From Acidimicrobiia bacterium (GTDB lineage Bacteria; Actinomycetota; Acidimicrobiia; Spongiisociales; ZC4RG35), in the NCBI GenBank assembly GCA_025928935.1, contig JAICNB010000034.1, forward strand, positions 1 to 34,199: DNA of 34,199 bases, given 5' to 3'. The notes under the pieces were generated by a model, which searched no databases, was not told the origin of the DNA, and worked only from the letters and a program-made list of their open reading frames with translations. Positions 2 through 30,159 of the stretch are shown here, piece after piece; within the stretch, counting starts at the first letter, position 1; every line of letters starts with the position of its first letter. Both the position numbers and the translations under genes were made by a program.

Positions 2-540
2 CTGGTGATGCTGTTCCACTACGGCCTGACGCCGGGACTATCGATCGTCAGCATCATCACCTTTCTGCTGCCGGCAGCGGCGCTGGCGACCAACCTGCCC
101 CAGGGGCTGCGCTGGACGCGGCGGCGCATCGTCGAGCATACCCGCAGGCGACTGCCGAGCATGCGCGGCGAAATCTCGCTGTTCCTGGCGGCGGGGCTCT
201 TCACCCAGGGGCTGTCGACGCTGATCGCCGCCGTCACCGGCGGCGACTGGGTGCTGTTCGCGCACTTCGGCGCGCCCCAGGCACTGGCGAGCTCCGCGGT
301 AATCGTGGCCAGCGCCATCGCCGGCCTGCATCCGATCATCGGCGTGTCGACGCTGGCCTCAATGCTCGACCTCGAGGGTAGCCGCTACACCTTGCTGGCC
401 TTCGTGGCGCTGGCCTCCTGGGGCGTGGGCACGGCGGTGGGGCCGCTGTCGGGGATCAACCTCTCGCTGCAGGGGCGCTACGGCGTCAGCGGCTACCGCA
501 CCATGCGCCTCAACGCCCCCTATGCTGCCGTGATGTCGCT
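2..540 (+). CDS. C-terminal part of an unidentified membrane protein, probably from another organism
   Basis: The reading frame is open at the left edge, so the true start is missing. The translation is strongly hydrophobic, with several likely membrane segments, an Arg-rich cytoplasmic loop near residues 35-50, and a Gly-rich stretch just before the join. I cannot name the family; it resembles the C-terminal half of a permease. It does not look like the first helices of an MFS transporter, although it runs in frame into one. Codon use (very many CTG and GCG/GGC, few GATCGG-type words) differs from the rest of the window and looks gammaproteobacterial. I infer that this piece belongs to a different genome joined here by the assembler. 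Confidence 0.5.
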
Positions 541-555
541 GGCGGGCAGGGTTCC
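525..555. other. probable chimeric assembly junction
   Basis: At about this point the single open frame switches from an unrelated membrane protein to sequence that fits the loop between helices 2 and 3 of an MFS transporter (Gly-Arg-Val-Pro-Gly-Ser-Arg-Arg, like the GxxxDRxGRR motif). Base composition and codon habits change at the same place. A natural gene fusion is possible but less likely, because the MFS part lacks its first two helices and the left part sits at a contig edge. Confidence 0.5.
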
Positions 556-1525
556 CGGGAGCAGGCGCCTGCTGATCGCAGGGCTGGTCGTCTTCTCTGC
601 CGGTTCCATCGTCACCGCATGGACGGGAGTGTTCGTGGGGGCGGTGGTTGGGTTTGCCTTGCTCGGCCTGGCCAAGCCCATGATCGACGTCAGCGCCCAG
701 GTCTACGTGTCGGAGCGGGTCGGCTACGAGCAACGCGCCCGGTATCTGGGAATCCTCGAGATCGCATGGGCGGGCGGTCTGCTGATCGGGGCCCCGGCTG
801 CGGGGTGGCTGATCGACAACTGGAGCTGGAAGGCCCCGTTCTGGGTGGTCGGCTCCCTTGGAATGCTCGGCATCGCCCTGGCGATGCTGTTCCTCGACCG
901 AGAGGACGGGACGGGGAACGGGGCGGGTGCCCCGGACAGCCCGGGCCGGCAGGTGATCCTGGTGCTGACGACCATCGTGCTGTTCAGCTACGCCCACGAA
1001 TCGGTGCTCGTGACGCTCGGTGGGTGGCTCGAGACGAGCTTCGGGATGACCTTGATCGCTCTCGGTGGAGTGGGGACTTTGATCGGTCTCGCCGAACTGG
1101 TCGGGGAGGTCACGATGGCCGGGTTCACCGACCGCATAGGCAAGCGAAACTCGCTCGCCCTCGGCATCGGTATCGGGGGAGCCTCACTCCTCGTCTTGTC
1201 GCTGGTTTCCGATCAGCTCATACCGGCCATGGCCGTCCTCTTCGTGGCCGCCGTGGCCATCGAATTCGGCATCATCTCGGCGATACCGCTGACCACCGAG
1301 CTCCGCCCTCGAGCCCGGGCGCAGACCCTCTCGCTCTTGATCGTGGCGAGCGGCCTGGGCCGGGCGGTGGCGGACCTGGTCGCACCGCGGGTGTTCGTCG
1401 CCGGCGGGATGCGACAGGTCACGACGATGGCCGGGCTGGTGGCCCTGATCTCCCTGTTAGTCGTCCTCCTCTGGGTGCACGAGGTCCAAGCTGCCGCTCA
1501 ACAGGACGAGGCGGTCGTTTCGTAG
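544..1525 (+). CDS. MFS transporter, N-terminus missing
   Basis: About 325 residues match the major facilitator fold from the helix 2-3 loop to the C-terminus. There is a degenerate motif A at the left end, a TM4-5 stretch with AGGLLIGAPAAGWLIDNWSW, a central loop rich in Asp/Gly near position 900-940, and a second half with a repeated motif (GFTDRIGKRNSL) typical of the helix 8-9 loop. A complete member would have 12 helices and about 400 residues, so roughly 70 residues are missing at the front, replaced by foreign sequence. The substrate cannot be told. The end overlaps the end of the convergent mannosylglycerate synthase gene by 28 bases. Confidence 0.7.
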
Positions 1526-2643
1526 CGCTCTACGGTCGATCTGAGGTAACCCATCGCTTCGTCGTACCCCTGCGACGCCTGTTGGACGGTGTAGGCGAGG
1601 ACTCGCATCAGCCACAACCTGAAGGCAAGCGACTCCCAGGAGGGATCGCCGAGAACGAATCGTCCCAACAGGAGCCCATGTACCTCGTACCAGAGGTTCG
1701 CATCCATCCGTCCGAACACCCGGTCCGGGCCGTCCGAAAGGAGCCGACCCGCGGCCTCGTCGGGGAGCGCGGCGACGAGAGATGCCTCGTCCTCTGGCCA
1801 GACCTTGCCCAGCAACCTCCTCGAGCCCTCGATGTCATAGGCGACGATCCGCTTCAGGTCCTCGGGCGGGTCCGATGCCGGGTCGCTCCCGTGTCTGGCG
1901 TCTGAGCCGGGCCCGGGTAAGCCGTCCAGGGAACAGGCGGCGTCGAGACATTCGATGAGCATCTCCTTCAGCTCGTCGAGCGAGCCATACAGGGCATGCC
2001 TTTTGCCATCGGCGACATGATGCTCGTAGAGGCCGATTCCCATGACCGACGTGGTGTAGGTGAGCACCGTGTCGATGCCCCAGTCCGATCGCTCCCGTAC
2101 CATCTCGGAGCCGGCGAGGGACTCGACGGCCGACCTGGTGAGGAGCACCTCCCCACCCAAGGGCTGGTCGAGCCGGGGAAGGAAAGTCCCCGGGAAGATA
2201 CGGGCAAACGCCGGCCTCGTGATCATCCAGGTGATCATGGCGTCGGTGGCAGCGCGGGGAAATCGATGCCGCACCACACCGTATCCGTTGTCGGCGGCGG
2301 CCTCGGCGCCGTCGATCCAGGAGGAATCGAAGTTGGTGATGTCGGCGTCGTAGAAATGGACGCGGTCCCATCCGTCCTCTGCGGCACGTTTGATGGCGGT
2401 GTTCATCGCGTCGCCCTTCCCGGGCCGCAGCTTGCCGAGCCGCTGCTGGAGGAGGACCGAGACCGGTTTGAGGTGGGCCCGGGAGATCTCTCCCGCTCCA
2501 CGGTCGACGGCCTTCTCCCCGGCACCCTCCTCGGCAGCGACGGCCCAGACCTCGTCGATGGCGTCATTGGCTGCGGCGATCGCCATGTTCCCCAGGACCA
2601 GGGATGGGTCTTCCGACTTGAAGGGGAAGACGACCAGGCTCAC
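1498..2643 (-). CDS. mgs: mannosylglycerate synthase (GT78)
   Basis: It transfers mannose from GDP-mannose to D-glycerate, giving the compatible solute alpha-mannosylglycerate in one step; it acts in the cytoplasm. The 381 residues align from memory with the Rhodothermus marinus enzyme (about 397 aa). Shared features are the start MSLVVFPFK, the LRPGKGDAMNTA loop (Lys76), the metal-binding Asp99-Ala-Asp101 (DADIT), RHRFPRAATDAMITWMITR, QPLGGE (160-165), RSDWGID and the GKRH histidine (His216). The R. marinus counterparts of the metal ligands are offset by only one residue. The start is GTG with a -10 hexamer placed for a leaderless transcript. The gene stands alone on this strand. ManC, which makes its sugar donor, is encoded at 18426. 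The family call is secure by motif; activity is inferred. Confidence 0.93.
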   Translation of the reverse strand: MSLVVFPFKSEDPSLVLGNMAIAAANDAIDEVWAVAAEEGAGEKAVDRGAGEISRAHLKPVSVLLQQRLGKLRPGKGDAMNTAIKRAAEDGWDRVHFYDADITNFDSSWIDGAEAAADNGYGVVRHRFPRAATDAMITWMITRPAFARIFPGTFLPRLDQPLGGEVLLTRSAVESLAGSEMVRERSDWGIDTVLTYTTSVMGIGLYEHHVADGKRHALYGSLDELKEMLIECLDAACSLDGLPGPGSDARHGSDPASDPPEDLKRIVAYDIEGSRRLLGKVWPEDEASLVAALPDEAAGRLLSDGPDRVFGRMDANLWYEVHGLLLGRFVLGDPSWESLAFRLWLMRVLAYTVQQASQGYDEAMGYLRSTVERYETTASSC

Positions 2644-2649
2644 CGACAG

Positions 2650-2655
2650 AGACTA
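2650..2655 (-). promoter_or_regulatory. -10 hexamer for mgs (leaderless)
   Basis: TAGTCT on the minus strand, followed by six bases and then the GTG start of mgs, so transcription would begin at the G of GTG. There is no Shine-Dalgarno sequence in front of this GTG. Confidence 0.6.
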
Positions 2656-2806
2656 GGTGTCGGTCCTCCCGGGTCGTTGCGAGGCTGAACCCCTCTACCG
2701 GATAGGTCCGAACCGAAGTGGTTTTCGCCTCTACTGGCCCCGGATCGTCAGCCAATACCTTGAAATCGGGTCGCCGTCCTTTGTCCGTCTGCGCCCGGAG
2801 GGAGAC

Positions 2807-3496
2807 ATGTCACGTCACGTCGAGACTCGATCGGCAGTCGGCGCTTTGTTCGCCGTTTCCCTGTTCCTGGTCGGTTTGCGGCGACTTCCCTTTCCTGGGC
2901 GACTGGGACTGTGATGGCATCGAGACCCCTGGCCTGTACCGCCAATCCGACGGCTTCGTCTATCTGAGGAACTCCAACAGCCAGGGCATCGCCGACATCC
3001 GGTTCCTCTTCGGCAACCCGGGTGACATTCCGATTGCCGGCGACTTCGACGGCGACGGATGCGACACCGTGTCCATCTATCGACCATCCGAGGCTTGGAT
3101 CTACGTGATCAACGAGTTGGGAGCCAAACGACGGAGGATTGGGTGCCGCCGAGCACAGCTACCTATTCGGGGATCCAGGCGACAAGCCCTTTGTCGGTGA
3201 CTTCGACGGGGATGGCACCGACACCGTCGGGCTCCATCGCGAATCCAGCGGCATGGTGTATAACCGAGACAGCAACACCCAGGGCGTTGCCGAAAACACC
3301 TTCGTTTACGGTGATCCCGGCGACCGACTGGTGGCATAGGACTGGAATGGCGACGGGAGACTCCCCGGCGGTGTTCCGGCCGGGCAACCACACCGTCTAC
3401 TTCCGGTTCTTCAACAGCAGCGGCACCGCCGACGCCCGATATATCTGGGGAGCGCCCGGCTGGTTGCCGGTGGCGGGTGATTTCGGCCAGGACTGA
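2807..3496 (+). pseudogene. broken secreted repeat protein with DxDxDG (FG-GAP/VCBS-like) repeats
   Basis: An ATG at 2807 with a good ribosome site (GGAGGGAG) opens a signal-peptide-like stretch. The frame then breaks at about 2875-2890 and the repeat region continues in another frame. Another shift falls near 3120-3140, a TAG stands where a Gly is expected (3337-3339, before DWNGDG), and a further shift falls near 3355. Put together, the pieces contain about four repeats of roughly 47 residues. Each has an acidic loop (DWDCDG, DFDGDG, DFDGDG, DWNGDG), then a Tyr/Phe-Arg strand, RNSN or RDSN, and FGxPGD. Such repeats form beta-propeller-like, calcium-binding extracellular domains. The neighbouring genes are intact, which argues for real decay rather than poor sequence, but read errors are not excluded. 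Confidence 0.75.
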
Positions 3497-3552
3497 CGTC
3501 TCTCGAGAGATGCCTGGGGTCCGGTATGCCCCAACCTGTCCCACGCCGGATC

Positions 3553-3558
3553 TACGCT
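3553..3558 (+). promoter_or_regulatory. -10 hexamer for herA (leaderless)
   Basis: TACGCT lies six bases before the ATG at 3565, so the expected first transcribed base is the A of that ATG. This supports 3565, rather than the in-frame ATG at 3526, as the herA start. Confidence 0.6.
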
Positions 3559-3564
3559 CGCCGA

Positions 3565-5238
3565 ATGGAGGAGATGGTCGGTCGGGTGCTCGGGACCAGC
3601 GATGCCACCCCGCTCGAGTTCTGGGTGGGTGTGGCCGAAGGTGAGTACCTCGAACTGGACGATGTGGTTGCCCTGGAGCGGGTCTTGCCCACCGGCGAGC
3701 TGGTCAAGATCTTCGGCACCATCAGCCAGGTCCGCGCCCGTCATGAGGGGGCGCGATTCGATTCGGATGTCTTCCTGATCGAAGACGGTGTGTTGCCCGC
3801 TGCGGTCCAGGAGGCGGCCCAGGTGACCGCGACCCGGGTCGAGCCCGAGATCTTCGTCCCGCCCCGCCCCGGCCAGCCGGTCCGCCGGGCCCATGACGAG
3901 GAGCGCGACCAGGCCCTGTTCTTCGATCGGATGGATCGGAGGTTCCCGGTCGGGGCGTCACGGAATGGCGAGCCTCTCTTTGCCAACCTCGAGTTCATCA
4001 ACGGGCAGCGTGGGGCGCATGTGAACATCTCCGGGGTCTCGGGCGTGGCCACCAAGACCAGCTACGCCACATTCCTCCTCCACTCGATGTTCACCTCTGG
4101 TGTGCTGGGCTCGGCCGTTGTCAACACCAAGGCACTGATCTTCAACGTCAAGGGTGAGGACCTGCTCCATCTCGATCGGCCCAACACCAGCCTCGATGAC
4201 GACGCCGAGCGTCTGTATCGGGCCCTCGGACTACCTGCACAGCCATTCGGCTCGGTCGGGTTGTTCGCACCGCCCCGTCCCGGATCGGATCGGGCCGTGG
4301 CCGATGTGAGCAGCCGCTCGGACCTCACCTCCTTCTTCTGGACGCTGGCCGAGTTCTGTCATGAGGACCTGATGGTCTTTCTGTTCGCCGACGCCGAGGA
4401 CGAACGAGCCCAGTACACGATGGTGGTCTACAACGTGATGGCGCAGTTGCGCCACGCAGAGGCGGCCGACGGGGGCTCGGTCCGCGTCGAAGGGGAGACG
4501 GTTCGCACCTTCAGGGAGCTGGCCGACCTGATCACTCGAAAGGTGCAGGACGAGGATTCCCGCAACGAGTGGGCCGGGCCTCACATCGGGGCCGGCACCG
4601 TGAATGCCTTCGTTCGCCGGCTCCAGGTGGCGGTGCGTCATGTCGATCGGCTGATCCGGGGTGACATCGCCAACCCGGAACGGCATCGCATCGAGGTTCA
4701 GGGCCATCAGGTGACCGTTGTCGACCTGCACAACCTGAATGATCGGGCGAAGAGGTTCGTGGTCGGTGTGGCGGTGAGACGTGCGTTCGAGGACAAGGAG
4801 CGAGCCGGCCAGTCGGAGGAGCTGCTGTTTCTCGTCTTGGACGAGCTGAACAAGTACGCCCCCAGAGAAGGGACGAGCCCGATCAAGGAGGTCCTCCTCG
4901 ACGTGGCAGAGCGTGGTCGTTCCCTGGGCGTGATCCTGATCGGGGCCCAGCAGACCGCGTCCGAAGTGGAGCGGAGGATCATCGCCAACTCCTCGATCAG
5001 GGTGGTGGGACGGCTCGACTCCGCCGAGGCGTCGCGTGAGGAGTACGGCTTCCTCCCCGCGGCCCAGAGACAGCGGGCCACCATCCTCAAGCCGGGGACA
5101 ATGCTCCTGGCCCAACCCGAGATCCCGGTTCCGTTGGTTCTCGAGTTCCCCTTCCCCGCCTGGGCGACGCGTGCTTCGGAGGCGGCGCCGGCACCGATCG
5201 GAAGCGACGGTCCGATCGACCCGTTCCAGGATCTGTAG
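3565..5238 (+). CDS. herA: HerA-type DNA translocase ATPase
   Basis: HerA is a hexameric, ring-shaped ATPase that moves DNA and, with the nuclease NurA, resects double-strand ends. From the chosen start (557 aa) there is an N-terminal HAS-barrel (VGRVLGTSDATPLEFWVGV, residues about 5-85). The RecA-like core has a P-loop near 155-165 of the form GVSGVATKTS, lacking the usual second Gly before Lys. Its Walker B strand (LLFLVLDELNKYAPR) is near 420-434. It is followed by the sensor region (GVILIGAQQTASEVERRI) and a C-terminal strand (KPGTMLLAQPEIPVPLVLEF). The ATG at 3526 would add 13 residues before the barrel; I prefer 3565 because of the -10 hexamer. The gene leads a four-gene set with sbcD, sbcC and nurA, which argues for repair rather than the HerA-based phage-defence modules. 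Confidence 0.88.
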   Translation: MEEMVGRVLGTSDATPLEFWVGVAEGEYLELDDVVALERVLPTGELVKIFGTISQVRARHEGARFDSDVFLIEDGVLPAAVQEAAQVTATRVEPEIFVPPRPGQPVRRAHDEERDQALFFDRMDRRFPVGASRNGEPLFANLEFINGQRGAHVNISGVSGVATKTSYATFLLHSMFTSGVLGSAVVNTKALIFNVKGEDLLHLDRPNTSLDDDAERLYRALGLPAQPFGSVGLFAPPRPGSDRAVADVSSRSDLTSFFWTLAEFCHEDLMVFLFADAEDERAQYTMVVYNVMAQLRHAEAADGGSVRVEGETVRTFRELADLITRKVQDEDSRNEWAGPHIGAGTVNAFVRRLQVAVRHVDRLIRGDIANPERHRIEVQGHQVTVVDLHNLNDRAKRFVVGVAVRRAFEDKERAGQSEELLFLVLDELNKYAPREGTSPIKEVLLDVAERGRSLGVILIGAQQTASEVERRIIANSSIRVVGRLDSAEASREEYGFLPAAQRQRATILKPGTMLLAQPEIPVPLVLEFPFPAWATRASEAAPAPIGSDGPIDPFQDL

Positions 5239-5243
5239 CGCCC

Positions 5244-5267
5244 GGGGGTCTGGGGGTCGTCCCCCAG
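5244..5267. repeat. palindrome-containing dispersed element, copy 1 of 4
   Basis: Just after the herA stop. The arms CTGGGGG (5250-5256) and CCCCCAG (5261-5267) pair perfectly around TCGT, with GGGGGT on the left flank. No T-run follows. Three more copies occur, at about 10733, 12806 and 33129. Confidence 0.8.
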
Positions 5268-5321
5268 GTTCGACCGTCGGGCGCGATCTCGCATCTCCCC
5301 GAATCTGTCGGTGTCCCGTCC

Positions 5322-5327
5322 TACGAT
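5322..5327 (+). promoter_or_regulatory. -10 hexamer ahead of the sbcD leader ORF
   Basis: TACGAT, with the next ATG (5335) seven bases downstream, so a transcript would begin at or next to that ATG. This suggests that sbcD-sbcC-nurA can be transcribed separately from herA. Confidence 0.5.
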
Positions 5328-5334
5328 CGCCCAC

Positions 5335-5358
5335 ATGGCCCGGTCGGTCCCTCCGTGA
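5335..5358 (+). CDS. leader minigene MARSVPP before sbcD
   Basis: ATG, six further codons, then TGA (5356-5358), which overlaps the GTG start of sbcD (5355-5357) as GTGA. The ATG sits where a leaderless transcript from the TACGAT hexamer would begin. A ribosome starting here would stop exactly on the sbcD start and could restart. There is no Shine-Dalgarno sequence before sbcD itself. Such a short ORF can arise by chance. Confidence 0.4.
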   Translation: MARSVPP

Positions 5359-6485
5359 GGATGCTCCACACCTCCGATTGGCACGTGGGGAGGAAGATCC
5401 GAGGACACTCCCGTGTCGACGAGCATCGGGCCGTCCTCACCGAGATCGTGGGGATCGCCGGGGATGAGCGGGTCGATGTCACGCTCGTCGCCGGGGACCT
5501 CTTCGATGTTTCGTCCCCATCACCGGAGGACGAGGCCATCGTCTATCGGGCCTTGCTCGACCTGGCCGAGGTGGGCCCGGTCGTGGTGGTGGGGGGGAAT
5601 CACGACAGCGCAGCCCGTCTGGAGGCCGTCAAGCCACTCCTCGATCTGGGGAGGATCACCGTCGTAGCCAGGCCGACGAGGCCGGGCGAGGGGGGGTTGA
5701 TCGTCTTCGAGTCGATCGACCTTGCAGTCGCCGCCATCCCCTTCATCTCGCAGCGTGGGATCGTCAAGGCGGCCGAGATCATGGAGCTCGATCCCGACCA
5801 GCATGCCCAGGGCTACGACGAGCGGCTGCGCAGGATCATCGCCGGGCTCACCGAGGGGATGGGGCCCGATCGCGTAAACGTGTTGACCGGCCATCTCACC
5901 GTGTACGGCGCCGAGAGCGGCGGTGGTGAGCGGGATGCCCACGTCTTCGGATACGCCATTCCCCCACAGGCCTTCCCGGGCAGCCTCTCGTACGTCGCAC
6001 TCGGCCATCTCCACCGCCAGCAGCGAGTACCCGCCGCCGCACCGGTCTGGTACAGCGGCTCTCCCATGCAGCTCGACTTCGGCGAGGTGAGTGACGCCAA
6101 AGGCGTCCTGCTGGTCGATGCCGAGCCCTCGATGCCTGCTTCGGTTCGGCCCCTCCCGCTGGTCAACGGGACCAGGCTGGTCCAGCTGAGGGGCACCCTG
6201 GAACAGGTCGTGGCCCGGGCACCCGAGGTCGAGGGCGCCTATGTGAAGATCCTCCTGGACGAGAAGGCGCGAGCCGGGCTGAACGAGGAGGTCCGTGAGG
6301 CGATACCCGGAGCTGTGGATGTCATCGTCGTTCGCCCCGAGGAGCGGGCGAAACGTGACGAGGCGACACGATCGGGGCGATCCCCGGTCGAGCTGTTCCA
6401 GAGCTATCTCACCACCCGTGGAGTCGATGACTCCGAGGTGGTCGAATTGTTCCGCGAGTTGGAGCAAGAGGTGCTCTCCGGATGA
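5355..6485 (+). CDS. sbcD: SbcD / Mre11-type exonuclease subunit
   Basis: This is the metal-dependent nuclease half of the SbcCD (Mre11-Rad50) complex, which trims DNA ends and opens hairpins. The 376 residues carry all the calcineurin-like phosphoesterase motifs in order: HTSDWHVGR (5-13), LVAGDLFD (45-52), GGNHDS (near 80), LTGHLTV (near 175) and ALGHLHRQ (near 216). A C-terminal capping region of about 130 residues follows. The GTG at 5355 gives the family-typical start M-R-M-L-H-T-S-D-W, so I prefer it to the ATG at 5361. The stop overlaps the sbcC start as ATGA, so the two subunits are translationally coupled. Length is normal for SbcD. Confidence 0.95.
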   Translation: MRMLHTSDWHVGRKIRGHSRVDEHRAVLTEIVGIAGDERVDVTLVAGDLFDVSSPSPEDEAIVYRALLDLAEVGPVVVVGGNHDSAARLEAVKPLLDLGRITVVARPTRPGEGGLIVFESIDLAVAAIPFISQRGIVKAAEIMELDPDQHAQGYDERLRRIIAGLTEGMGPDRVNVLTGHLTVYGAESGGGERDAHVFGYAIPPQAFPGSLSYVALGHLHRQQRVPAAAPVWYSGSPMQLDFGEVSDAKGVLLVDAEPSMPASVRPLPLVNGTRLVQLRGTLEQVVARAPEVEGAYVKILLDEKARAGLNEEVREAIPGAVDVIVVRPEERAKRDEATRSGRSPVELFQSYLTTRGVDDSEVVELFRELEQEVLSG

Positions 6486-8812
6486 GGCCGCGGCACCTCG
6501 TCATGGAGGGATTCCTCGCCTACCGCCGGCGGATCGAGGTCGACTTCAGCGATGCCGACCTTTTCGTGCTCTCGGGCCCCACCGGTGCAGGGAAGTCGAG
6601 TGTGATCGACGGGATGACGTTTGCCCTCTACGGCTCGATCCCCCGTCTGGGGAAGGGCTCGGTGGCGCCGCTCATCTCCGCCCAATCCGATCGGGCCCGC
6701 GTTTCGTTCAGCTTCACGGTGGGCGACGAGACCTATACCGCCGCACGCATGTTGGAGCGTCAGGGGGCCGGGGCGAGCACCAAGGAGGCCAGGCTGCAGC
6801 GGGGCGAGGAGGAAGTGGTCCTGGCCGGCACAGCAGACGAGGTGACGGCGGAGGTGACGAATCTATTGGGGCTCAGCTACGAGCACTTCGTCAAGGCCGT
6901 TGTCCTGCCGCAGGGGGCCTTTGCAGACTTCCTCACCGACAGGCCGAAGGACCGGCAGGCACTTCTCGGAGAGCTGCTCGACATGGGTCTCTACGAGGAG
7001 GTCATGCAGCTTGCCAACGTCCGGGCCAGGCTCGCCGATGGCCGGGCGAAGACGGTGGTGGAGAGCCTGGCCAAGCTTGAGGTGGCGACTGAAGCTCAGC
7101 TAGAAGGGGCGCGTGCGAGGCTGGAGGACCTGGTGGGGGCGAGCAGGGAGCTCCCCGACCGGCTCGAGATGCTGGAGAATCTCGACGCCGTCTGTCGGAA
7201 GGCGCGGGAGGCCCACACCGCCGTGGTCGGGAGCCTGGATCGTCTACGCGCCATCCAGATCCCTGGTGACCTCGAGACGTTGGGGGAGGACAGGAAGGCG
7301 GCCGGCGAGGCCATGACGATCGCTCAGACCAGGCTCTCTGCCACCCTCGAGGAGCGGAGAGGTCTTCAGGAGCGAGCGGCTGCGCTGCCCGCACTCGCCC
7401 GACTCGAGTCCCTCCAAGAGGACCAGGTGAAACGCGGCGAGCTGGCCGATCGTCTGGCCGCCCTCGACCTGGCAGCCCTGGCTGCGGAGGTGGAGGCGGC
7501 CGCCACGGCCCATGACCAGGCTCGCATCGCCCTGGACGAGGCCAGGGTCGCCCATGCCGCCCAGGACCTGCGCCACGGTCTGTCGATGGGCGACCCCTGC
7601 CCGGTGTGTGGGGGCGTCTTCGGCACCGTCGATGAGAGCGAGCGTGAGGTTCACGGATCCATCGAGTCGCTCCGCGAGGAGCTGAATCGAGTCGAGGAGC
7701 GGGCCAACCACGCCCGCGGGGCGCTCAAGGGAGCCGAGGGCGAGGCCAAGCAGATCGATCGTCAGCTGGTCGAGGTGACCGCCCGACTCGAGGCGGCGCC
7801 ATCCTCCGAGGCGATCGAAGAGATGATCGAGACGGCCCGTTCATTGGATGAGGCACGGCTGGCCAACGAGAAGGCGGTGGAGGCGGCGCAGGAGGAGGTG
7901 GAGGCGGCCCGGCTCATCGTCGTCGGGCTCGAGGAACGAGACGTCGGTCTCGGTGAGGCGCTGCTCGCGGCCCGCGACCGGGTCGCAGCCGAGGAGCCGC
8001 CCCTGCCCGGCAAGGACCCGATCGAGTCATGGCACAGGTTCGACGAATGGCTGATCGGGAAGATGGCCGATCGGTCGGGAGAGTTGGCTTCATTGGAGAG
8101 GGCGCGTGAGGAGGCCGATGAGGCCCTTGGTGCGGCAGTCGGAGAGCAGCGGGACTGGCTGGAGGGGCTCGGCATCGCGTTCACCGATTCGCCCGGCACG
8201 GATCTGGCCCTGGCCGAGGCAGGGCAGCGGGCCGCCATCGACGAGATGGAGAAGACCATCACTCACGCCTCAGAGCTGGAAGACGAGCTGGCGCTGGAAC
8301 AGTCACGGGCCCGGGTCGCCTCGGCGCTGGGGAACCATCTCAAGTCGAACAACTTCGAGGCCTGGCTCTTGGAGGAGGCGATGGATGTCCTGATCGACGG
8401 GGCCAACGGGCTCCTCGACGACCTCTCCGGCGGCGCCTACTCGCTGAAGATGACGAGGGGGCAATTCGAGGTCATCGACCACCGCAACGCCGAGCTGACC
8501 AGGACCACCCGGTCCCTGTCCGGTGGAGAGACCTTCCTGGTGTCGCTCTCGCTCGCCTTGTCCATGGCCGACCAGCTGGCCCTGATCACCGGCGTCTCCT
8601 CACGTCTCGAATCGGTGTTCCTCGACGAGGGTTTCGGATCGCTCGATCAAGAGTCGCTCGATGTGGTGGCGTCCGTGCTCGACGAGCTTGTCGGTCGCGG
8701 GCGCACGGTCGGCATAGTCACCCACGTGCGGGAGCTCGCCGACCGCTTCCCGGTCCGATTCGAGGTCACCAAGGGCTCGGAGACGGCCTCGATCGCCAGG
8801 TTGGAGACATGA
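6482..8812 (+). CDS. sbcC: SbcC / Rad50-type SMC ATPase
   Basis: This is the ATPase and coiled-coil partner of SbcD; ATP binding closes the head on DNA and controls the nuclease. The 776 residues show a Walker A (GPTGAGKSS, near 33-41), a first Glu/Ala-rich coiled coil, the zinc hook C373-P-V-C376, a second coiled coil, the ABC signature (SLSGGETF, near 680) and Walker B (VFLDEGFGSLD, near 711). The arms are short: bacterial SbcC usually exceeds 1000 residues, so the reach of this complex should be smaller. The start overlaps the sbcD stop (ATGA) and the stop overlaps the nurA start (ATGA). Confidence 0.94.
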   Translation: MRPRHLVMEGFLAYRRRIEVDFSDADLFVLSGPTGAGKSSVIDGMTFALYGSIPRLGKGSVAPLISAQSDRARVSFSFTVGDETYTAARMLERQGAGASTKEARLQRGEEEVVLAGTADEVTAEVTNLLGLSYEHFVKAVVLPQGAFADFLTDRPKDRQALLGELLDMGLYEEVMQLANVRARLADGRAKTVVESLAKLEVATEAQLEGARARLEDLVGASRELPDRLEMLENLDAVCRKAREAHTAVVGSLDRLRAIQIPGDLETLGEDRKAAGEAMTIAQTRLSATLEERRGLQERAAALPALARLESLQEDQVKRGELADRLAALDLAALAAEVEAAATAHDQARIALDEARVAHAAQDLRHGLSMGDPCPVCGGVFGTVDESEREVHGSIESLREELNRVEERANHARGALKGAEGEAKQIDRQLVEVTARLEAAPSSEAIEEMIETARSLDEARLANEKAVEAAQEEVEAARLIVVGLEERDVGLGEALLAARDRVAAEEPPLPGKDPIESWHRFDEWLIGKMADRSGELASLERAREEADEALGAAVGEQRDWLEGLGIAFTDSPGTDLALAEAGQRAAIDEMEKTITHASELEDELALEQSRARVASALGNHLKSNNFEAWLLEEAMDVLIDGANGLLDDLSGGAYSLKMTRGQFEVIDHRNAELTRTTRSLSGGETFLVSLSLALSMADQLALITGVSSRLESVFLDEGFGSLDQESLDVVASVLDELVGRGRTVGIVTHVRELADRFPVRFEVTKGSETASIARLET

Positions 8813-9714
8813 GGTTCACGGTGGAGGCATGGGACCCCGACTATGGGGCGCCGTCGGATCCCGATTTGGCCGATGCCACCGAGAACGTCGATGTCTCGGT
8901 CGAGCTGGCGCCCGAGCAGTGGCACCCGATCCTTCCCGAAGCCGTTCCCGCCCCGGACATCTTGTTCGTGGACGGTGTGCGCCGGGTGGACGCCAATCTG
9001 TGGATCGAGCACGAGGGTCGGTTCCCCAGCTTCGGCCTGGCGGCCACCTTCGCCGCCGGAGCGGTGCGGTGCAACAGCGAGGCCGTGGTGGTGGCGGCAG
9101 AGGTGAGACGCGGCGTGTTCACCGGCGCCGACGCCGACCCGGTGGAGACAAATATCGGGACCTATCAGGTCATGAGCACGAAAGGATCGACTCCGGAGGA
9201 GCTCTGGCTGGGCATCCAACAGCGGATGGGGGACCTGGAGGGTGGCATAGCCGAGCTACATGCCGACGTGGCCCTGATGGTGGTGGACGGGCCTCTGTCC
9301 CATCGACGTCACGTCGAGGGAGCGGTCGGGTATGTGAAGACACAGCACGTCCAATATCTCCCCGACGACCTGCGGGCCACACTGGGGGCCCTCCCCGTGG
9401 GGCATCGAACGCCGCTCTTCCTCACCACGACCTCTTGGAGCAGGTTCTCCTGGTATCTGCGCCTCGCCAACGGCACCGGTCCGGCAGGGGGGCTGGTGCG
9501 CTGCGAGGTCCAGGCCGACATGAGCGTGGCCGAGGCAATGCGGCGGGCGAATCTGGTCACGGCTTCGCTGCCCAGGTATGCCTCGGCCCGGCACAAGGAC
9601 CCCCGGGCCCCCCAGAACCTCTACCCGATCGGAGGCCTCGAACGCGAGTTACGCCGGCGGCTAGGTGACCGGGACCTTGCCATCAGGGCCCTGCGATTGG
9701 CTGCGGCAGCTTGA
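8809..9714 (+). CDS. nurA: NurA-type nuclease
   Basis: NurA is a 5'-3' nuclease of RNase H-like fold that sits on HerA and degrades one strand during end resection. The 301 residues show the family layout. A hydrophobic strand ends in a catalytic Asp (ILFVDG, Asp55). About 100 residues on, a second one does the same (ALMVVDGPL, Asp160), then GYVKTQ with Lys177. The C-terminus has a His-containing stretch (SARHKDPRAPQNLYPI) and a YPIGGLE-type end. The match is by motif and position rather than by strong overall identity. The context (herA, sbcD and sbcC directly upstream, ATGA overlap with sbcC) makes the call firm. It ends 22 bases before the end of a convergent transporter gene. Confidence 0.85.
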   Translation: MRFTVEAWDPDYGAPSDPDLADATENVDVSVELAPEQWHPILPEAVPAPDILFVDGVRRVDANLWIEHEGRFPSFGLAATFAAGAVRCNSEAVVVAAEVRRGVFTGADADPVETNIGTYQVMSTKGSTPEELWLGIQQRMGDLEGGIAELHADVALMVVDGPLSHRRHVEGAVGYVKTQHVQYLPDDLRATLGALPVGHRTPLFLTTTSWSRFSWYLRLANGTGPAGGLVRCEVQADMSVAEAMRRANLVTASLPRYASARHKDPRAPQNLYPIGGLERELRRRLGDRDLAIRALRLAAAA

Positions 9715-18425: not shown

Positions 18426-19469
18426 GTGACCTCGATGATTCGGCCGGTGATCCTCTCGGGTGGGTCGGGGACCCGGCTCTGGCCCGTCTCCACGCGTGAG
18501 CGCCCGAAGCAGTTCATCGATCTCGTCGGGAAACCGCTGTTCGAGGCCACCCTCGACAGGGCCGGCCGGGTAGCCCAAGACGGCCGGGTGATCGTCGTCA
18601 CCGGGAGCGACCATGTCGACGCCGTGGAGGAGGCCCTCTCCGACTCGGACCTCGATGCCACAGTCCTGGTGGAGCCGTCGGGTCGCAACACGGCTCCTGC
18701 CGTCATCGCCGCCGCCTCGAGCGCCGACCCGGAAGACGTGCTGCTGGTGATGCCCTCGGATCACCTGATCACCGACACCTCCGCCTTCGTCGCGGCGGTG
18801 GGAGCGGCTGTCGAAGTCTCGGAAAGCGGATCGCTGGTGACCTTCGGGGTGGTCCCCACCAGGCCGGAGACCGGTTATGGGTACATCGAGAAGGGCGATC
18901 CGTTCGGCTCCGCCTACCGGGTGACGAGATTCAAGGAGAAGCCCGACCCCGAGGAGGCCACCCGGCTGGTGGCCGATGGCCGGCATCTCTGGAACTCCGG
19001 GATGTTCGTGTTCCAGGCATCCGCCCTGCTCGACGAGGCAGAGAGACTTGCGCCCGACATCCTCGAGACGGTGCGATCCTCGATGACGGGCCGGGTCCGG
19101 GGCAGGGTGACGATGGGAGAGGGGTTCGCCACCGCTCGCTCGATATCGATAGACCACGCCATCCTCGAGAATGCGAAGGATGTTGCCGTCGTCCCCCTCG
19201 ACGCCGGCTGGAGTGACATCGGGTCCTGGGAGTCGGTCTCGGAGTTAGGCGAGCCGGATGAGGCCGGAAACATCCTGATCGGTGACGTGGTCGCCCTGGA
19301 TGTCAAGGGGTCCTACCTTCGGTCCAGCTCGAGAATCATCGCTGTCGCCGGCGTGGACGGACTGGTGGTGGTGGAGACGCCCGATGTGGTGTTGATCATC
19401 CCCAAGGATCAATCACAGCTGGTCCGGGACCTGGCTGCCCACGTCGAGCAGAGCCGGCGGGCCGATTGA
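18426..19469 (+). CDS. manC: mannose-1-phosphate guanylyltransferase
   Basis: It makes GDP-mannose from mannose 1-phosphate and GTP in the cytoplasm. The 347 residues open with the nucleotide-binding signature (VILSGGSGTRLWPVS, then RERPKQF). They continue with the VMPSDHLI metal site and the FKEKPDPEEA sugar-site loop, and end without the phosphomannose isomerase domain found in bifunctional relatives. GDP-mannose feeds mannosylated lipids and glycans, and is also the donor for the mannosylglycerate synthase at 1498-2643. The GTG start is set by the -10 hexamer seven bases upstream. It heads a run with the cytochrome, menC and menD. Confidence 0.94.
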   Translation: MTSMIRPVILSGGSGTRLWPVSTRERPKQFIDLVGKPLFEATLDRAGRVAQDGRVIVVTGSDHVDAVEEALSDSDLDATVLVEPSGRNTAPAVIAAASSADPEDVLLVMPSDHLITDTSAFVAAVGAAVEVSESGSLVTFGVVPTRPETGYGYIEKGDPFGSAYRVTRFKEKPDPEEATRLVADGRHLWNSGMFVFQASALLDEAERLAPDILETVRSSMTGRVRGRVTMGEGFATARSISIDHAILENAKDVAVVPLDAGWSDIGSWESVSELGEPDEAGNILIGDVVALDVKGSYLRSSSRIIAVAGVDGLVVVETPDVVLIIPKDQSQLVRDLAAHVEQSRRAD

Positions 19470-25317: not shown

Positions 25318-25365
25318 ATGGGTGTTTCATTACACCTGTCTGCCCATAGGAGGGAAACCATATGA
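25318..25365 (+). CDS. leader ORF (15 codons) before the binding-protein gene
   Basis: Near-leaderless ATG at 25318; it reads MGVSLHLSAHRRETI and stops with TGA overlapping the ATG of the binding protein (ATGA, 25362-25365). The Shine-Dalgarno sequence of the main gene (AGGAGGG, about 25348-25354) lies inside it, so ribosomes on the leader could cover or expose that site. The His/Arg-rich middle (LHLSAHRR) recalls actinobacterial leader peptides, but I cannot assign a family. Confidence 0.45.
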   Translation: MGVSLHLSAHRRETI

Positions 25366-27125
25366 AGACAAAACGAGGGAAGAGCGCACTTGCCGCTCTT
25401 CTTGCGTTTGGCCTGTTCGTAGCTGCTTGTAGCAGCGGCGAACCGACCGATACCACGGAGGCGCCGGAGGACACTACGGCGACCACCGAGGCTCCGACGG
25501 AGACCACCGAGGCTCCGACGGAAACCACCGAGGCGCCTGCCGCCGGCGGCGGGATCGTCACCAGCTATATCGGTGAGCCTGAGTGGCTGCAGCCCCCGAA
25601 CACCAACGAGTCGGAGGGGAACGCGGTGCTCAGCGCCCTGTTCCGTGGCCTGATCGATTACAACCCGGAGACCAGTGAGCCCGAGTTCACCGGTGTCGCG
25701 GAGTCGATCACCTCGGCCGACGAGGGACTCACTTGGGACATCGTCCTGAAGGACGGTTGGACCTTCCACGACGGCACCCCGGTGACCGCACAGTCGTTCG
25801 TCGACTCGTGGAACTACTCGGCATACGGGCCCAACGCGGCTCAGGTGTCGGGGTTCTTCTCGTCGATCGCCGGCTATGAGGACCTTCAGTGTGGGACCGT
25901 CACGGAGCCCGACCCGGACACCGGTGAGGACGTCGATGTGGCCGACTGTGAGGGCCAGCCCCCCGCATCCGAGACCATGAGTGGTCTTGCTGTCGTCGAC
26001 GACCTCAACTTCACCGTCACGCTCGCCCAGCCTGAGACGTTCTTCATGACACGTCTCGGCTATACCTCGTACTACCCGTTGCCGGAGGCGTTCTTCGCCG
26101 ACCCGGCCGCGTACAACGAGTCGCCGATCGGCAACGGCCCGTTCATGATGGACGGTTCGTGGGAGCACGACGTGGAGATCAGGACCGTGGCCAACCCCGA
26201 CTTCGCCGGCGAAGACCCGGCCCAGATCGATGGCCTGACCTTCCGGATCTACGAGGACGTGAACACCGCGGTGAACGACCTGATGGCGGGCAACCTCGAC
26301 ATCGTCGACTTCGTTCCACCAGAGCGGGTGGCCGAGGTCGAGGCAGCAGTGCCCAACTTCGGTGAGACAGCGAGCTCATCGATCAACTATCTGGCCTTCC
26401 CGTTGTACGACCCGGCCTATCAGAACCCGGATGTACGAGCGGCATTGTCGATGGCGATCGACCGTGAGACTCTGGTCAACAGCCCGATCTTCAACGGCAC
26501 GCGTGCCCCGGCCTTCAACCTGCAGGCGCCGGTCATCCCTGGCTACCAGGAGACGGTCTGTGACAACTGGACCTACAACCCGGAGCAGGCCGCTGCGCTG
26601 TGGGAGTCGTCCGGTGGCATCGAGGGTCCGATCACGGTCTGGTTCAACTCGGGCGCCGGTCACGACGCCTGGGTCGAGGCCGTGGTCAACATGTGGTCGG
26701 AGAACCTGGGCCTCGACGTGGCCAATGTCACGTTCGAGCAGCTCGACTTCGCCGACTACCTGCCACTGATCGACGAGCAGGGCATGACCGGCCCGTTCCG
26801 TCTTGGCTGGGGTATGGACTACCCGCACCCCCAGAACTACTGGCAGTTGCTGCTGTACAGCGAGTTCGTGCCGCCGGTGGGCTCGAACAGCACGTTCTAC
26901 ATCAACCCCGAGTTCGACGCCAAGATCGACGAGGCCAACGCCCAGGCCGACATCAACGCCGCCATACCCCTCTATCAGGAGGCGGCGGCGATCGCCTGTG
27001 CCGACACTCCGCTGATCCCGATGTTCTTCGGGTTGAACCAGTACGGCTGGAACGACACCGTCGACGGGGTCTACGTGGACGCCTTCGGCAACATCGTGTA
27101 CACCGACCTGGTGACAACCGGCTGA
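25362..27125 (+). CDS. peptide/solute-binding lipoprotein of an ABC importer (family 5)
   Basis: It captures the substrate outside the membrane and delivers it to the permeases encoded next. Of 587 residues, 1-23 are a lipoprotein signal (LFVAAC, Cys23). Residues about 27-62 are a Thr/Glu/Ala/Pro linker (TTEAP repeats) that spaces the domain from the membrane. The rest is an OppA/DppA-type domain: EPEWLQPPNTNESEGNAVL, WTFHDGTPVTAQSFVDSW, LGYTSYYPLPEAFF, IGNGPFMMDG, DVRAALSMAIDRETLV and FRLGWGMDYPHPQNYW. The ligand is probably an oligopeptide, though nickel, sugar and other binders share the family. It has a strong Shine-Dalgarno (AGGAGGG) and a leader ORF overlapping its start. It is first in a five-gene operon. 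Confidence 0.93.
   Translation: MKTKRGKSALAALLAFGLFVAACSSGEPTDTTEAPEDTTATTEAPTETTEAPTETTEAPAAGGGIVTSYIGEPEWLQPPNTNESEGNAVLSALFRGLIDYNPETSEPEFTGVAESITSADEGLTWDIVLKDGWTFHDGTPVTAQSFVDSWNYSAYGPNAAQVSGFFSSIAGYEDLQCGTVTEPDPDTGEDVDVADCEGQPPASETMSGLAVVDDLNFTVTLAQPETFFMTRLGYTSYYPLPEAFFADPAAYNESPIGNGPFMMDGSWEHDVEIRTVANPDFAGEDPAQIDGLTFRIYEDVNTAVNDLMAGNLDIVDFVPPERVAEVEAAVPNFGETASSSINYLAFPLYDPAYQNPDVRAALSMAIDRETLVNSPIFNGTRAPAFNLQAPVIPGYQETVCDNWTYNPEQAAALWESSGGIEGPITVWFNSGAGHDAWVEAVVNMWSENLGLDVANVTFEQLDFADYLPLIDEQGMTGPFRLGWGMDYPHPQNYWQLLLYSEFVPPVGSNSTFYINPEFDAKIDEANAQADINAAIPLYQEAAAIACADTPLIPMFFGLNQYGWNDTVDGVYVDAFGNIVYTDLVTTG
25483..25538 (+). repeat. 21-bp tandem repeat in the lipoprotein linker
   Basis: Two full units (25483-25503, 25504-25524; ACCACCGAGGCTCCGACGGA(G/A)) and two thirds of a third. 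They encode Thr-Thr-Glu-Ala-Pro-Thr-Glu, so the linker length may vary between strains. Confidence 0.85.
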
Positions 27126-27160
27126 CAAGAGAAGGGCAACGAATACGTAGCCCGAGATAT

Positions 27161-27191
27161 GTGGAGCGGCACCCGTGGGGTGCCGCTCCAC
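27161..27191 (+). terminator. strong intercistronic stem-loop in the ABC operon
   Basis: GTGGAGCGGCACCC and GGGTGCCGCTCCAC form a perfect 14-bp stem with a GTG loop. It lies 36 bases after the binding-protein stop and 76 bases before the first permease, with no T-run. Its likely role is partial termination or protection of the upstream message, so that binding protein is made in excess of permease. Confidence 0.75.
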
Positions 27192-27253
27192 ACTATGGTT
27201 GCGAAGGGTGACGGCACATGGGGGCTTCGACCTTCGGGACGAAGGAGGCATGG

Positions 27254-27271
27254 GTGAAGGCTGAGCGATGA
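27254..27271 (+). CDS. leader minigene VKAER before the first permease
   Basis: GTG, four codons, TGA; the stop overlaps the permease ATG (ATGA, 27268-27271). AAGGAGG (27242-27248) stands five bases before this GTG, an ideal distance, but about 19 bases from the permease ATG, which is too far. The ribosome site therefore fits the minigene better than the permease itself. This is the best-supported minigene here. Confidence 0.5.
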   Translation: MKAER

Positions 27272-28194
27272 CGAGCTACATCATCAGGCGGCTCGGGCAG
27301 TTCGTCTTGGTGTTCTTCGCGGCGACACTCATGATCTATGCCATGGTGTTCGCCATCCCCGGGGACCCGATCCGGGCCCTGGCCGGCGACAAGCCGATGC
27401 CCGACTCGCTGAGGCAGACCCTCACCCAGCAATTCCATCTCGACGAGCCGTTCTTGGTCCAGTACTGGTACTACATCACCGGTGTCATCCAGGGAGACCT
27501 CGGTACCAGCTTCAACAACCGCGAGGTCACCGAAATCATCTCCGAGCGCTTCCCCCGCACGCTCCGCCTCGCCATCTACGCCTTCATCATCGAAGTCATA
27601 ATCGGCGTCTCCGCCGGCATTTGGGCCGGCATCCGAAAGGACAAATTCTTCGACTCACTGGTCAAAGTGAGCACCGTCGCGGTGATCTCGGTCCCCATAT
27701 TCGTCCTCGGGTTCATGGCCCAGCTCATCATCGGGGTCAGACTCGGCTGGCTTCCGGTCACCGCGGGAAACCCACCCAGCCTCTACGGGTACCTGCTGCC
27801 GGCCATCGTCCTGGCCTCGGTGTCCCTCGCCTATGTGGCCCGTCTCACCCGTTCCAGTCTGGTGGAGAACCTCCGCTCGGACTATGTGCGTACCGCCAAG
27901 TCCAAGGGACTCACCCAGCGACGGGTGATCGGGGTCCACACCTTCCGCAACTCCCTCATCCCCGTGGTCACCTTCCTCGCCATCGACCTCGGCGCCCTGA
28001 TGGGGGGCGCCATCGTCACCGAGACCATCTTCAACATCCCTGGCATCGGTCGGGCGGTCTACGAGGCCGTTCTCGCCCAGGAGGGCAACGTGGTGGTGGG
28101 GATCGTGACGGTGCTGGTCATCATCTATGCGGTGGCCAACCTCGTCGTGGACGTGATGTACGCCGTGCTCGACCCCAGGATCCGCTATGACTGA
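27268..28194 (+). CDS. ABC importer permease, DppB/OppB type
   Basis: 308 residues, about six membrane helices. It has the characteristic N-terminus (YIIRRLGQFVLVFFAATLMIYAMVFAIPGDP), a periplasmic loop with LDEPFLVQYWYYITGVIQGDLGTSF, and a cytoplasmic EAA-type loop (YVRTAKSKGLTQRRVIGVHTFRNSLIPVV) that contacts the ATPase. It pairs with the next gene to form the channel. Its last eight bases overlap that gene. Translation may depend on restart after the VKAER minigene. Confidence 0.95.
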   Translation: MTSYIIRRLGQFVLVFFAATLMIYAMVFAIPGDPIRALAGDKPMPDSLRQTLTQQFHLDEPFLVQYWYYITGVIQGDLGTSFNNREVTEIISERFPRTLRLAIYAFIIEVIIGVSAGIWAGIRKDKFFDSLVKVSTVAVISVPIFVLGFMAQLIIGVRLGWLPVTAGNPPSLYGYLLPAIVLASVSLAYVARLTRSSLVENLRSDYVRTAKSKGLTQRRVIGVHTFRNSLIPVVTFLAIDLGALMGGAIVTETIFNIPGIGRAVYEAVLAQEGNVVVGIVTVLVIIYAVANLVVDVMYAVLDPRIRYD

Positions 28195-29131
28195 CATCAC
28201 CAGCAAGCCACCGACGGAGGCGGTCCTCGCACCGGACGTCGCCACGCCGGAGGTCGTTCCGGCCGGCGTTCCACCAAAGCAAGGGAAGCCGGCCAGCCTC
28301 TGGTCCGACGCCTGGAAGGAGCTGAGACGGAAGCCGACCTTCGTCATCTCGGCGGTGATCATCATCGTCATGGTGGTCATGGCAGCGGTCCCCACCCTGT
28401 TCACCTCCGTAGATCCCCGCGAATGCAGCCTCCTCAACGCCCTTCAACCTCCCAGTGCCGAGCACTGGTTCGGCTTCGACCTCCAGGGCTGTGACTACTA
28501 CTCCCGCACGATCCACGGGGCACGCAACTCGGTCGCGATCGGCCTCGTGGTCACCTTCTTCGCCTCGCTCATAGCGGTCACGCTTGGCTCCCTCGCCGGT
28601 TACAAGGGTGGCTGGATCGACTCGTCGCTGGCCCGTCTGGCCGACATCTTCTTCGCCATCCCGTTGATCCTGGCCGGGATCGTCTTGCTCAATGCCCTGG
28701 GCAGCAAGAGCGTCTGGACAGTGAGTGCCGTGCTCATCGTGTTCGGATGGCCGACCATGCTCCGGCTGATGCGCTCCTCCGTCCTCTCGGTGAGGGAACT
28801 GGACTATGTCGACGCGGCTCGGGCCCTGGGTGCCAGCGACTGGCGGATCATCACCCGGCACATCCTCCCCAATGGCATCACGCCAGTCGTGGTCTACGCC
28901 ACGATCACCGTCGGCGTCGTCATCTCGGCCGAGGCGACCCTCTCCTTCCTCAATGTCGGGCTGCAGCTTCCGGCCATCTCCTGGGGTCTGATGATCTCGG
29001 TGGCACAGAACCGGATCCTGGAGGCCCCGCATCTCCTCTTCTTCCCCGGCCTCTTCCTGAGCATCACCGTTTTCTCGTTCATCCTCATGGGAGACGCCCT
29101 CCGCGACGCCCTGGATCCCAAACTGCGATGA
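28187..29131 (+). CDS. ABC importer permease, DppC/OppC type
   Basis: 314 residues. A hydrophilic, Pro-rich N-terminal stretch of about 40 residues is followed by the typical W-K-E-L-R-R-K-P-T-F entry to helix 1. An extracellular loop (ECSLLNALQPPSAEHWFGFDLQGCDYYSR) has two cysteines that could pair. The EAA loop reads YVDAARALGASDWRIITRHILPN. The C-terminus ([17 protein letters not shown]) is standard for OppC/DppC. The start overlaps the preceding permease by eight bases and the stop overlaps the next gene as ATGA. Confidence 0.95.
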   Translation: MTDITSKPPTEAVLAPDVATPEVVPAGVPPKQGKPASLWSDAWKELRRKPTFVISAVIIIVMVVMAAVPTLFTSVDPRECSLLNALQPPSAEHWFGFDLQGCDYYSRTIHGARNSVAIGLVVTFFASLIAVTLGSLAGYKGGWIDSSLARLADIFFAIPLILAGIVLLNALGSKSVWTVSAVLIVFGWPTMLRLMRSSVLSVRELDYVDAARALGASDWRIITRHILPNGITPVVVYATITVGVVISAEATLSFLNVGLQLPAISWGLMISVAQNRILEAPHLLFFPGLFLSITVFSFILMGDALRDALDPKLR

Positions 29132-30159
29132 CGAAGGTCACCCCGCTGGACACCGCGTACGATCCGCATAGGCCGGAGACCGCCGTGCTTCTCGAGGTCC
29201 GCGACCTGGAGGTCGAGTTCCGGATGCGCTCGGGCACGGTGAAGGCATCCAACATGGTCAGCTATCACGTCGACAAGGGAGAGACCCTGGCCATCGTCGG
29301 TGAGTCGGGGTCGGGCAAGACCGTGAGCGCCCAGGCGATCATGGGGATCATCGACTCTCCACCGGGGTTCGTCACCGGCGGCGAGATCCTGTTCCGGGGC
29401 AAGGACATCCTGCAGATGGAAGAGAAGGAGCGACGTGAGATAAGGGGCGACCGCATCTCCATGATCTTCCAGGACGCCCTCACCGCCCTCAACCCCGTCT
29501 TCTCCGTGGGTTGGCAGATCGCCGAGATGTTCCGCAAGCATCGTGGGATGTCGAAGTCGGACGGATACAAGCGGGCCATCGAGCTGATGGACTTGGTGAA
29601 GATCCCCTCCGCCTCCGAGCGGGTCAACGCCTACCCGCACGAGTTCTCCGGTGGCATGCGGCAGAGGGTGATGATCGCGATGGCCCTTGCCCTCGACCCG
29701 GACGTCTTGATCGCCGACGAGCCCACCACCGCTCTCGACGTCACCGTGCAAGCCCAGATCATGGAGCTGTTGGCGGAACTTCAGCAGCAGACCGGGATGG
29801 GGCTCATCCTGATCACCCACGACCTCGGGGTGGTCGCCGAGGTGGCCGACAGGGTGTCGGTCATGTATGCCGCCGAAGTGGTGGAGAATGCCGACATCGA
29901 AGAGCTCTTCGTGCGGCCGTATCACCCGTATACCGAGGGTCTGATGCGCTCGCTGGTCCGTCCCGACCACAAGGGCGGGCGGCTGTCCCCGATCAAGGGC
30001 TCGCCACCCGACCTGCTCGCCATCCCCTCGGGGTGCCCTTTCCACCCGCGCTGTGACTACGCCCAGGACATCTGTCGCACCGACGATCCACCACTGAGGG
30101 TCATCGAAGAGGGCCGGACCTCGGCATGCCACTTCGCCGAGGTGTTCTCCGATGAGTGA
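29128..30159 (+). CDS. ABC importer ATPase, DppD/OppD type
   Basis: 343 residues from ATG 29128; a longer open frame upstream is only an overlap with the permease gene. It carries Walker A (GESGSGKT), Q-loop ([15 protein letters not shown]), signature (FSGGMRQRV), Walker B ([12 protein letters not shown]) and the His switch (LITHDLG). The C-terminal oligopeptide-transport domain has Cys-Pro-Phe-His-Pro-Arg-Cys and a third Cys (DIC), the set that binds an Fe-S cluster in some family members. It powers uptake as a heterodimer with the next gene. Confidence 0.95.

Follow-up and report, generated by a model that had tools for sequence, protein, structure and literature searches.

A GT78 mannosylglycerate synthase family gene in an Acidimicrobiia lineage that mostly carries it in the absence of MpgS

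The stretch analysed (the window) is the whole of contig JAICNB010000034.1, 34,199 nt read on the forward strand, from the Acidimicrobiia assembly GCA_025928935.1; its features are listed in table 1. The ORF at 1498-2643 is a full-length member of the GT78 mannosylglycerate synthase (MGS) family. Its GTG start aligned with the start of Rhodothermus marinus MGS, and an in-frame stop codon lies four codons upstream. On one side the gene meets an MFS transporter frame, and on the other it is divergent from a HerA-SbcD(Mre11)-SbcC(Rad50)-NurA repair operon (3526-9714, plus strand), here in an actinobacterium. At 25362-31147 on the plus strand there is also an oligopeptide-type ABC transporter, complete with its binding protein, both permeases and both ATPases.

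Table 1. Positions of the annotated features in the window.
Feature	Position	Strand	Details
MFS transporter	2..1525	+	convergent with MGS, overlaps MGS 3' end by 28 bp; cut by contig start
MGS (GT78 mannosylglycerate synthase)	1498..2643	-	381 aa, GTG start
PF21967 MGS_C, C-terminal helical domain	1534..1851	-	residues 265-370; 73.5 bits, cut-off 27
PF21969 MGS_GT, GT-A catalytic domain	1936..2640	-	residues 2-236; 290.5 bits, cut-off 27
Metal-ligand histidine	1996..1998	-	residue 216 = R. marinus H217
DAD metal-binding motif	2341..2349	-	residues 99-101 = R. marinus D100-A101-D102
MGS-herA gap, 921 bp	2644..3564		inserted repeat-protein remnant inside
HerA-like ATPase	3526..5238	+	7f6d HerA, E 3.6e-145; divergent from MGS
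SbcD/Mre11-like nuclease	5355..6485	+	PF00149, PF12320
SbcC/Rad50-like ATPase	6482..8812	+	PF13476, PF13558
NurA-like nuclease	8809..9714	+	7f6d NurA, E 3.8e-18
ManC-type mannose-1-phosphate guanylyltransferase	18426..19469	+	PF00483 166.9 bits, PF22640 48.2 bits

The initial annotation had called the gene GT78 and its host actinobacterial, and both assignments were borne out. Both Pfam MGS domains were found over cut-off, and the R. marinus MGS chains 2y4k, 2y4j and 2bo4 were matched over residues 1-377 (E 7.7e-102 to 1.2e-101), with 46-47% identity over the full length. An AlphaFold model from a 22-row alignment (mean pLDDT 89.0, pTM 0.86) has the MGS fold: MGS chains ranked first in Foldseek (E ~1e-37, TM 0.88-0.89), and VIA-align superposed 353-358 residues on them with Z 45.1-45.9 and rmsd 2.0-2.1, the next families being far lower (GpgS, Z about 22; MpgS, about 18-21). 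The sole NCBIfam match was the GpgS model NF010496, which scored 23 bits (cut-off 262), and the Pfam search of the protein gave no match to PF09488 (MpgS, GT55). Identity as MpgS, GpgS or a generic GT2 enzyme was ruled out by the profile scores and the structure comparison. A chance match is excluded by the negligible E-values, by purifying selection within the genus and by the conserved position of the gene in sister genomes. Genus and family mates of the host include Acidimicrobiia records.

For the active site, 46 MGS sequences (the window protein and 45 others) were aligned and compared in R. marinus numbering, the reference row being L010, which comes from a Rhodothermus MAG and is collinear with the R. 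marinus chain. P7, K9, E11, Q66, R73, G75-G77, D100, A101, D102, R131, T134, D135, T139, W189, D192, K215, H217, Y220 and M229 are all kept in the window; P7, R73, G75-G77, K76, D100, D102, R131, T134, D135, T139, D192, K215, H217, Y220 and M229 are invariant in 46/46 sequences. The DAD metal site and the histidine ligand had been described as intact, and they are (D99, D101 and H216 of the window protein). We take R131, D135, T139, K76, D192, Y220 and M229 to be donor and acceptor site residues of R. marinus MGS, with R131, D135, T139, Y220 and M229 as the acceptor-site positions among them.

The MGS tree includes Rhodothermus, has long branches and was built from MGS homologues throughout without an outgroup, so that it shows relationships within the family and is not by itself a test of GT78 membership; a further MGS fragment of G721, at a contig edge, was left out. 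In this tree the window grouped with members of its genus and family with 100/100 support. The window clade of 10 family genomes had 100/100 support and a stem of 0.38. Within the genus MGS is under purifying selection (dN/dS 0.17-0.25). For the closest pair, window and G444, MGS gave a dN/dS of 0.245 versus 0.033-0.178 for four tested neighbours and was 78% identical versus 89-96%; for window and G580, MGS was 68% identical versus 72% for one tested neighbour, with a lower dN/dS for MGS. Because of the long stem and the faster change in the closest pair, an acceptor shift or relaxed constraint is possible. R. marinus MGS is itself acceptor-promiscuous. The title of 2y4j names a crystal structure of it with lactate. 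An enzyme of the long-branched window clade, whose tips are long as well, might use lactate, glycolate or another hydroxy acid and form a product other than mannosylglycerate. We regard such a shift as improbable, since the presumed acceptor positions are invariant in 10/10 members of the window clade and in the 36 other sequences.

PF21969 passed the cut-off in 2/396 genomes of a phylum-wide sample and in 33/395 genomes of the class, every one of the latter inside the window's order; the corresponding counts were 33/138 for the order and 20/34 for the window's family. Nine of the 395 class genomes, outside the order, had sub-threshold matches and were set aside, since these are probably other GT-A enzymes. 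An MGS scan of the genome contig collection returned 21 loci, 8 from genomes of the window's order and 13 from Rhodothermus (2), Acetothermia/Bipolaricaulota (5, two from one MAG), Neomarinimicrobiota, Caldisericota, Desulfohalobiaceae (2), Sumerlaeota and Elusimicrobia. L006 is titled Acidobacteria and L022 bears an isolate label of Acidobacteriota, yet both correspond to contigs of genomes placed in the window's Acidimicrobiia order. The MGS of L014 (Neomarinimicrobiota) and L018 (Caldisericota) nest with short branches among Bipolaricaulota, which reflects either misbinning or recent transfer. Since MGS recurs across the order and the family, it is a recurrent trait of the clade and not an isolated find. 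With 21 loci in the contig scan and 33/138 genomes in this single order, the earlier remark that GT78 is known from few organisms is out of date; in 2012 PMC3342304 gave two entries for the family, one bacterial and one algal.

Of the 20 family genomes with MGS, 11 have HerA as its divergent neighbour and 2 (G441, G456) as a convergent one; in the remaining 7 HerA was absent from the stretch fetched around MGS. The start-to-start gap between MGS and herA was 41-94 bp in 8/10 mappable divergent cases, the two longer gaps measuring 282 bp (G444) and 921 bp (window). The repeat-protein remnant in the window's gap (2718-3500) is broken by stops and has FG-GAP-like GDFDGDG motifs recognised by eye; at this position the genus mate G444 carries additional sequence that differs from it. 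The MFS frame overlaps the 3' end of MGS by 28-31 bp in 3/3 genomes of the genus. Its first ~175 residues in the window (2-527, plus strand) had no match to the MFS protein of G444 or G580, and the rest was 89% identical to G444 and 72% to G580; the N-terminal mismatch may have arisen from faulty joining at the contig start, or the fusion may be real.

The window is, in full, one of the 144 contigs of the assembly and ends inside the flanking MFS gene, as might be seen if MGS were a contaminant of the metagenome bin or a recently transferred gene. That explanation is extremely improbable given the MGS-herA junction in the 11 family genomes and the closest MGS sequences, which come from the same genus at full support. 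Furthermore, one origin of all 33 Acidimicrobiia MGS was not rejected (p-AU 0.28). One origin of the 20 family MGS was not rejected either (p-AU 0.068), and on this long-branched tree without an outgroup no transfer within the order is claimed.

Pathway genes lie beside MGS in several relatives. MpgS and MGS were close together on one contig in 6/6 order genomes with both (G441, G456, G595, G652, G666 and G721). The MpgP family cut-off was passed in 2/2 of these that were tested (G652 and G441), and the MpgP of G456, G595 and G666 was grouped with the G652/G441 proteins by similarity. In G441 and G456 a PF22422 mannosylglycerate hydrolase-family gene precedes MpgS, giving the order MgH-MpgS-MpgP-MGS. 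MpgS/MpgP also flank MGS in 4/13 non-actinobacterial loci (L020, L021, L023 and L024; the MpgP of L020 was the one tested). A glycerate 2-kinase homologue (DUF4147/MOFRL) lies directly 3' of MGS in 5/5 f76 genomes (one tested), where it scores below the NCBIfam equivalog cut-offs; L020 has an unrelated glycerate kinase (PF02595) and ManC/PMI after MGS; and in G526 and G534 ManC is divergent from MGS and adjoins it (one tested). These MpgS/MpgP, hydrolase, glycerate kinase and ManC neighbours give independent support for GDP-mannose and glycerate as substrates, and, an assay apart, such separate links are the strongest indication that the family makes mannosylglycerate. The window MGS itself has no pathway gene as neighbour and forms no operon with any. 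As further observations on gene order, MgH-MpgS-MpgP-MGS is located between SbcD and HerA in L061 and L063, the MGS of the window clade being found on the opposite side of HerA; the Acetothermia-type loci L009, L013, L015, L017 and L018 have MalK-type ABC transporter genes ahead of MGS; and in L018 the ABC ATPase and MGS read as a single 756-aa frame.

In the window's own genome (completeness 98.46%), a profile search found no PF09488 match. A MOFRL glycerate kinase was found, and no member of the mannosylglycerate hydrolase family. ManC, which had been proposed as the source of GDP-mannose, is present in the window ~16 kb from MGS and outside any operon with it. A gene of the trehalose-6-phosphate synthase family was found, and mannosylglycerate is thus not necessarily the main solute; the best match to ectoine synthase was 24.5 bits, below the cut-off of 27. 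The missing hydrolase and MpgS, the disturbed upstream gap and the faster rate of MGS could together be read as the remains of a former MgH-MpgS-MpgP-MGS cluster, degrading under relaxed selection and of little use to the cell. With the ORF intact in 3/3 genomes of the genus, dN/dS far below 1 and every catalytic position kept, we consider decay of this kind very improbable.

Over the whole order, PF09488 passed the cut-off in 11/138 genomes: 6 had both genes, 27 MGS only, 5 MpgS only and 100 neither (Fisher p 0.023, with the 138 genomes treated as independent and relatedness ignored). In G580 an 18.7-bit PF09488 match, below cut-off, falls within the MGS gene. Thus 27/33 MGS-bearing order genomes, the window's genome included, lack MpgS over cut-off. 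The 33 genomes are 56-100% complete; assembly gaps are unlikely as the cause of the 27 absences together and could account for single cases. According to PMC6240254 (2018), every known native mannosylglycerate producer is able to use the two-step route, and it is on this account that MGS in the absence of MpgS is unusual. Production of mannosylglycerate by the window's organism, if it occurs, would run counter to that statement.

We hold it very likely that the gene encodes a functional GT78 MGS, by which a lineage that seems to lack the two-step route would make alpha-mannosylglycerate in one step as a compatible solute. ManC would supply GDP-mannose, and MGS, as a retaining, metal-dependent GT-A enzyme, would transfer mannose from it to the 2-hydroxyl of D-glycerate, yielding alpha-mannosylglycerate in a single step. 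In vivo the product would accumulate as a compatible solute, with a probable role against osmotic or desiccation stress; the Acidimicrobiia lineage concerned is uncultured and, judging by this genome, has no two-step route. A more speculative and rather unlikely extension is that this is the first one-step-only bacterial lineage, and that MGS may share a divergent promoter with the HerA-Mre11-Rad50-NurA operon as a joint desiccation/osmotic-stress locus; such a locus, if real, would protect proteins and mend DNA together. Shared control of MGS and herA is a guess, and their linkage may be plain inheritance, since several of these genomes also share a conserved arrangement of the far-side genes.

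The gene had been taken to point to a salt- or heat-exposed habitat. The heat part was not supported, with no thermophile signal in composition, and the salt part gains slight support from an acidic proteome and two order members, from coral skeleton and a cold seep. Composition-based growth temperature was 50 for the window's genome, 49 for the f76 loci (which include a cold-seep MAG), 32-47 for five sampled MGS-lacking genomes, 66 for the Rhodothermus loci and 102 for the Acetothermia-type loci; judging from the values for the cold-seep-containing f76 and the other sets, the formula is poorly calibrated here. The Desulfohalobiaceae loci, with no ORF over the filter, did not enter this comparison. 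Median pI was 5.08 for 187 ORFs of the window's genome; two relatives with MGS gave 5.01 and 4.86, and five genomes of the class that lack MGS gave 5.23-6.14. The genomes compared are few, mutually related and partly sampled, and their ORFs were selected by length and codon GC (G057, with 5 small contigs, was dropped as too short). Habitat was traced by isolate name for two genomes: G420, of the window's family, is from coral skeleton (isolate code IP29b; PMC9868349), and G731, of another family of the order, is from a cold seep catalogue (code CSMAG; PMC10491686). The acidic proteome and these two members are weakly suggestive of a salty setting for the window lineage.

MGS is a known kind of enzyme; what is unexpected is an underappreciated lineage that carries it mostly in the absence of MpgS. 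No title on GT78 in the window's order came up in the literature searched, most subscription papers being outside its coverage. In a soil-crust paper that names both mannosylglycerate and Acidimicrobiia, the solute is attributed to Rubrobacter, and the two terms also co-occur in a review of thermophilic and alkaliphilic Actinobacteria. The order, with MGS in about one-quarter of its genomes and most of these lacking MpgS, offers natural MGS-only candidates, together with natural MpgS-MpgP-MGS and MGS-glycerate-kinase clusters. These gene sets make it possible to test why a bacterium would retain either route alone or the two together. The order also adds a diverse range of MGS enzymes, of probable mesophilic origin, for use in solute production.

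The closest known system is R. marinus MGS (GT78; 2bo4, 2y4j-2y4m), which the window protein resembles in both domains, the fold, the DAD/His site and the presumed substrate positions, and from which it differs in sequence (46-47% identical), in its actinobacterial lineage and in a genome without MpgS. R. marinus MGS retains the anomeric configuration. By an account credited to Borges in 2004, R. marinus reportedly has both the one-step and the two-step routes. Its MGS transfers mannose from GDP-mannose directly onto D-glycerate, as given in a review. Eukaryotic genes from Selaginella, Physcomitrella, Griffithsia and Coleochaete are reported as GT78 in PMC3342304, and it is by this family report that they are likened to the window MGS. 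The MpgS/MpgP route (GT55 and HAD phosphatase; fused as MgsD in Dehalococcoides) would share donor and end product with the window enzyme if the prediction is right, and differs in enzyme family, in its phosphorylated intermediate and in PF09488, which is absent from the window's genome. GpgS (GT81) and Rubrobacter xylanophilus MpgS have a common GT-A core with the window MGS (Z about 20-22 over 210-233 residues) and differ from it at about 20% identity.
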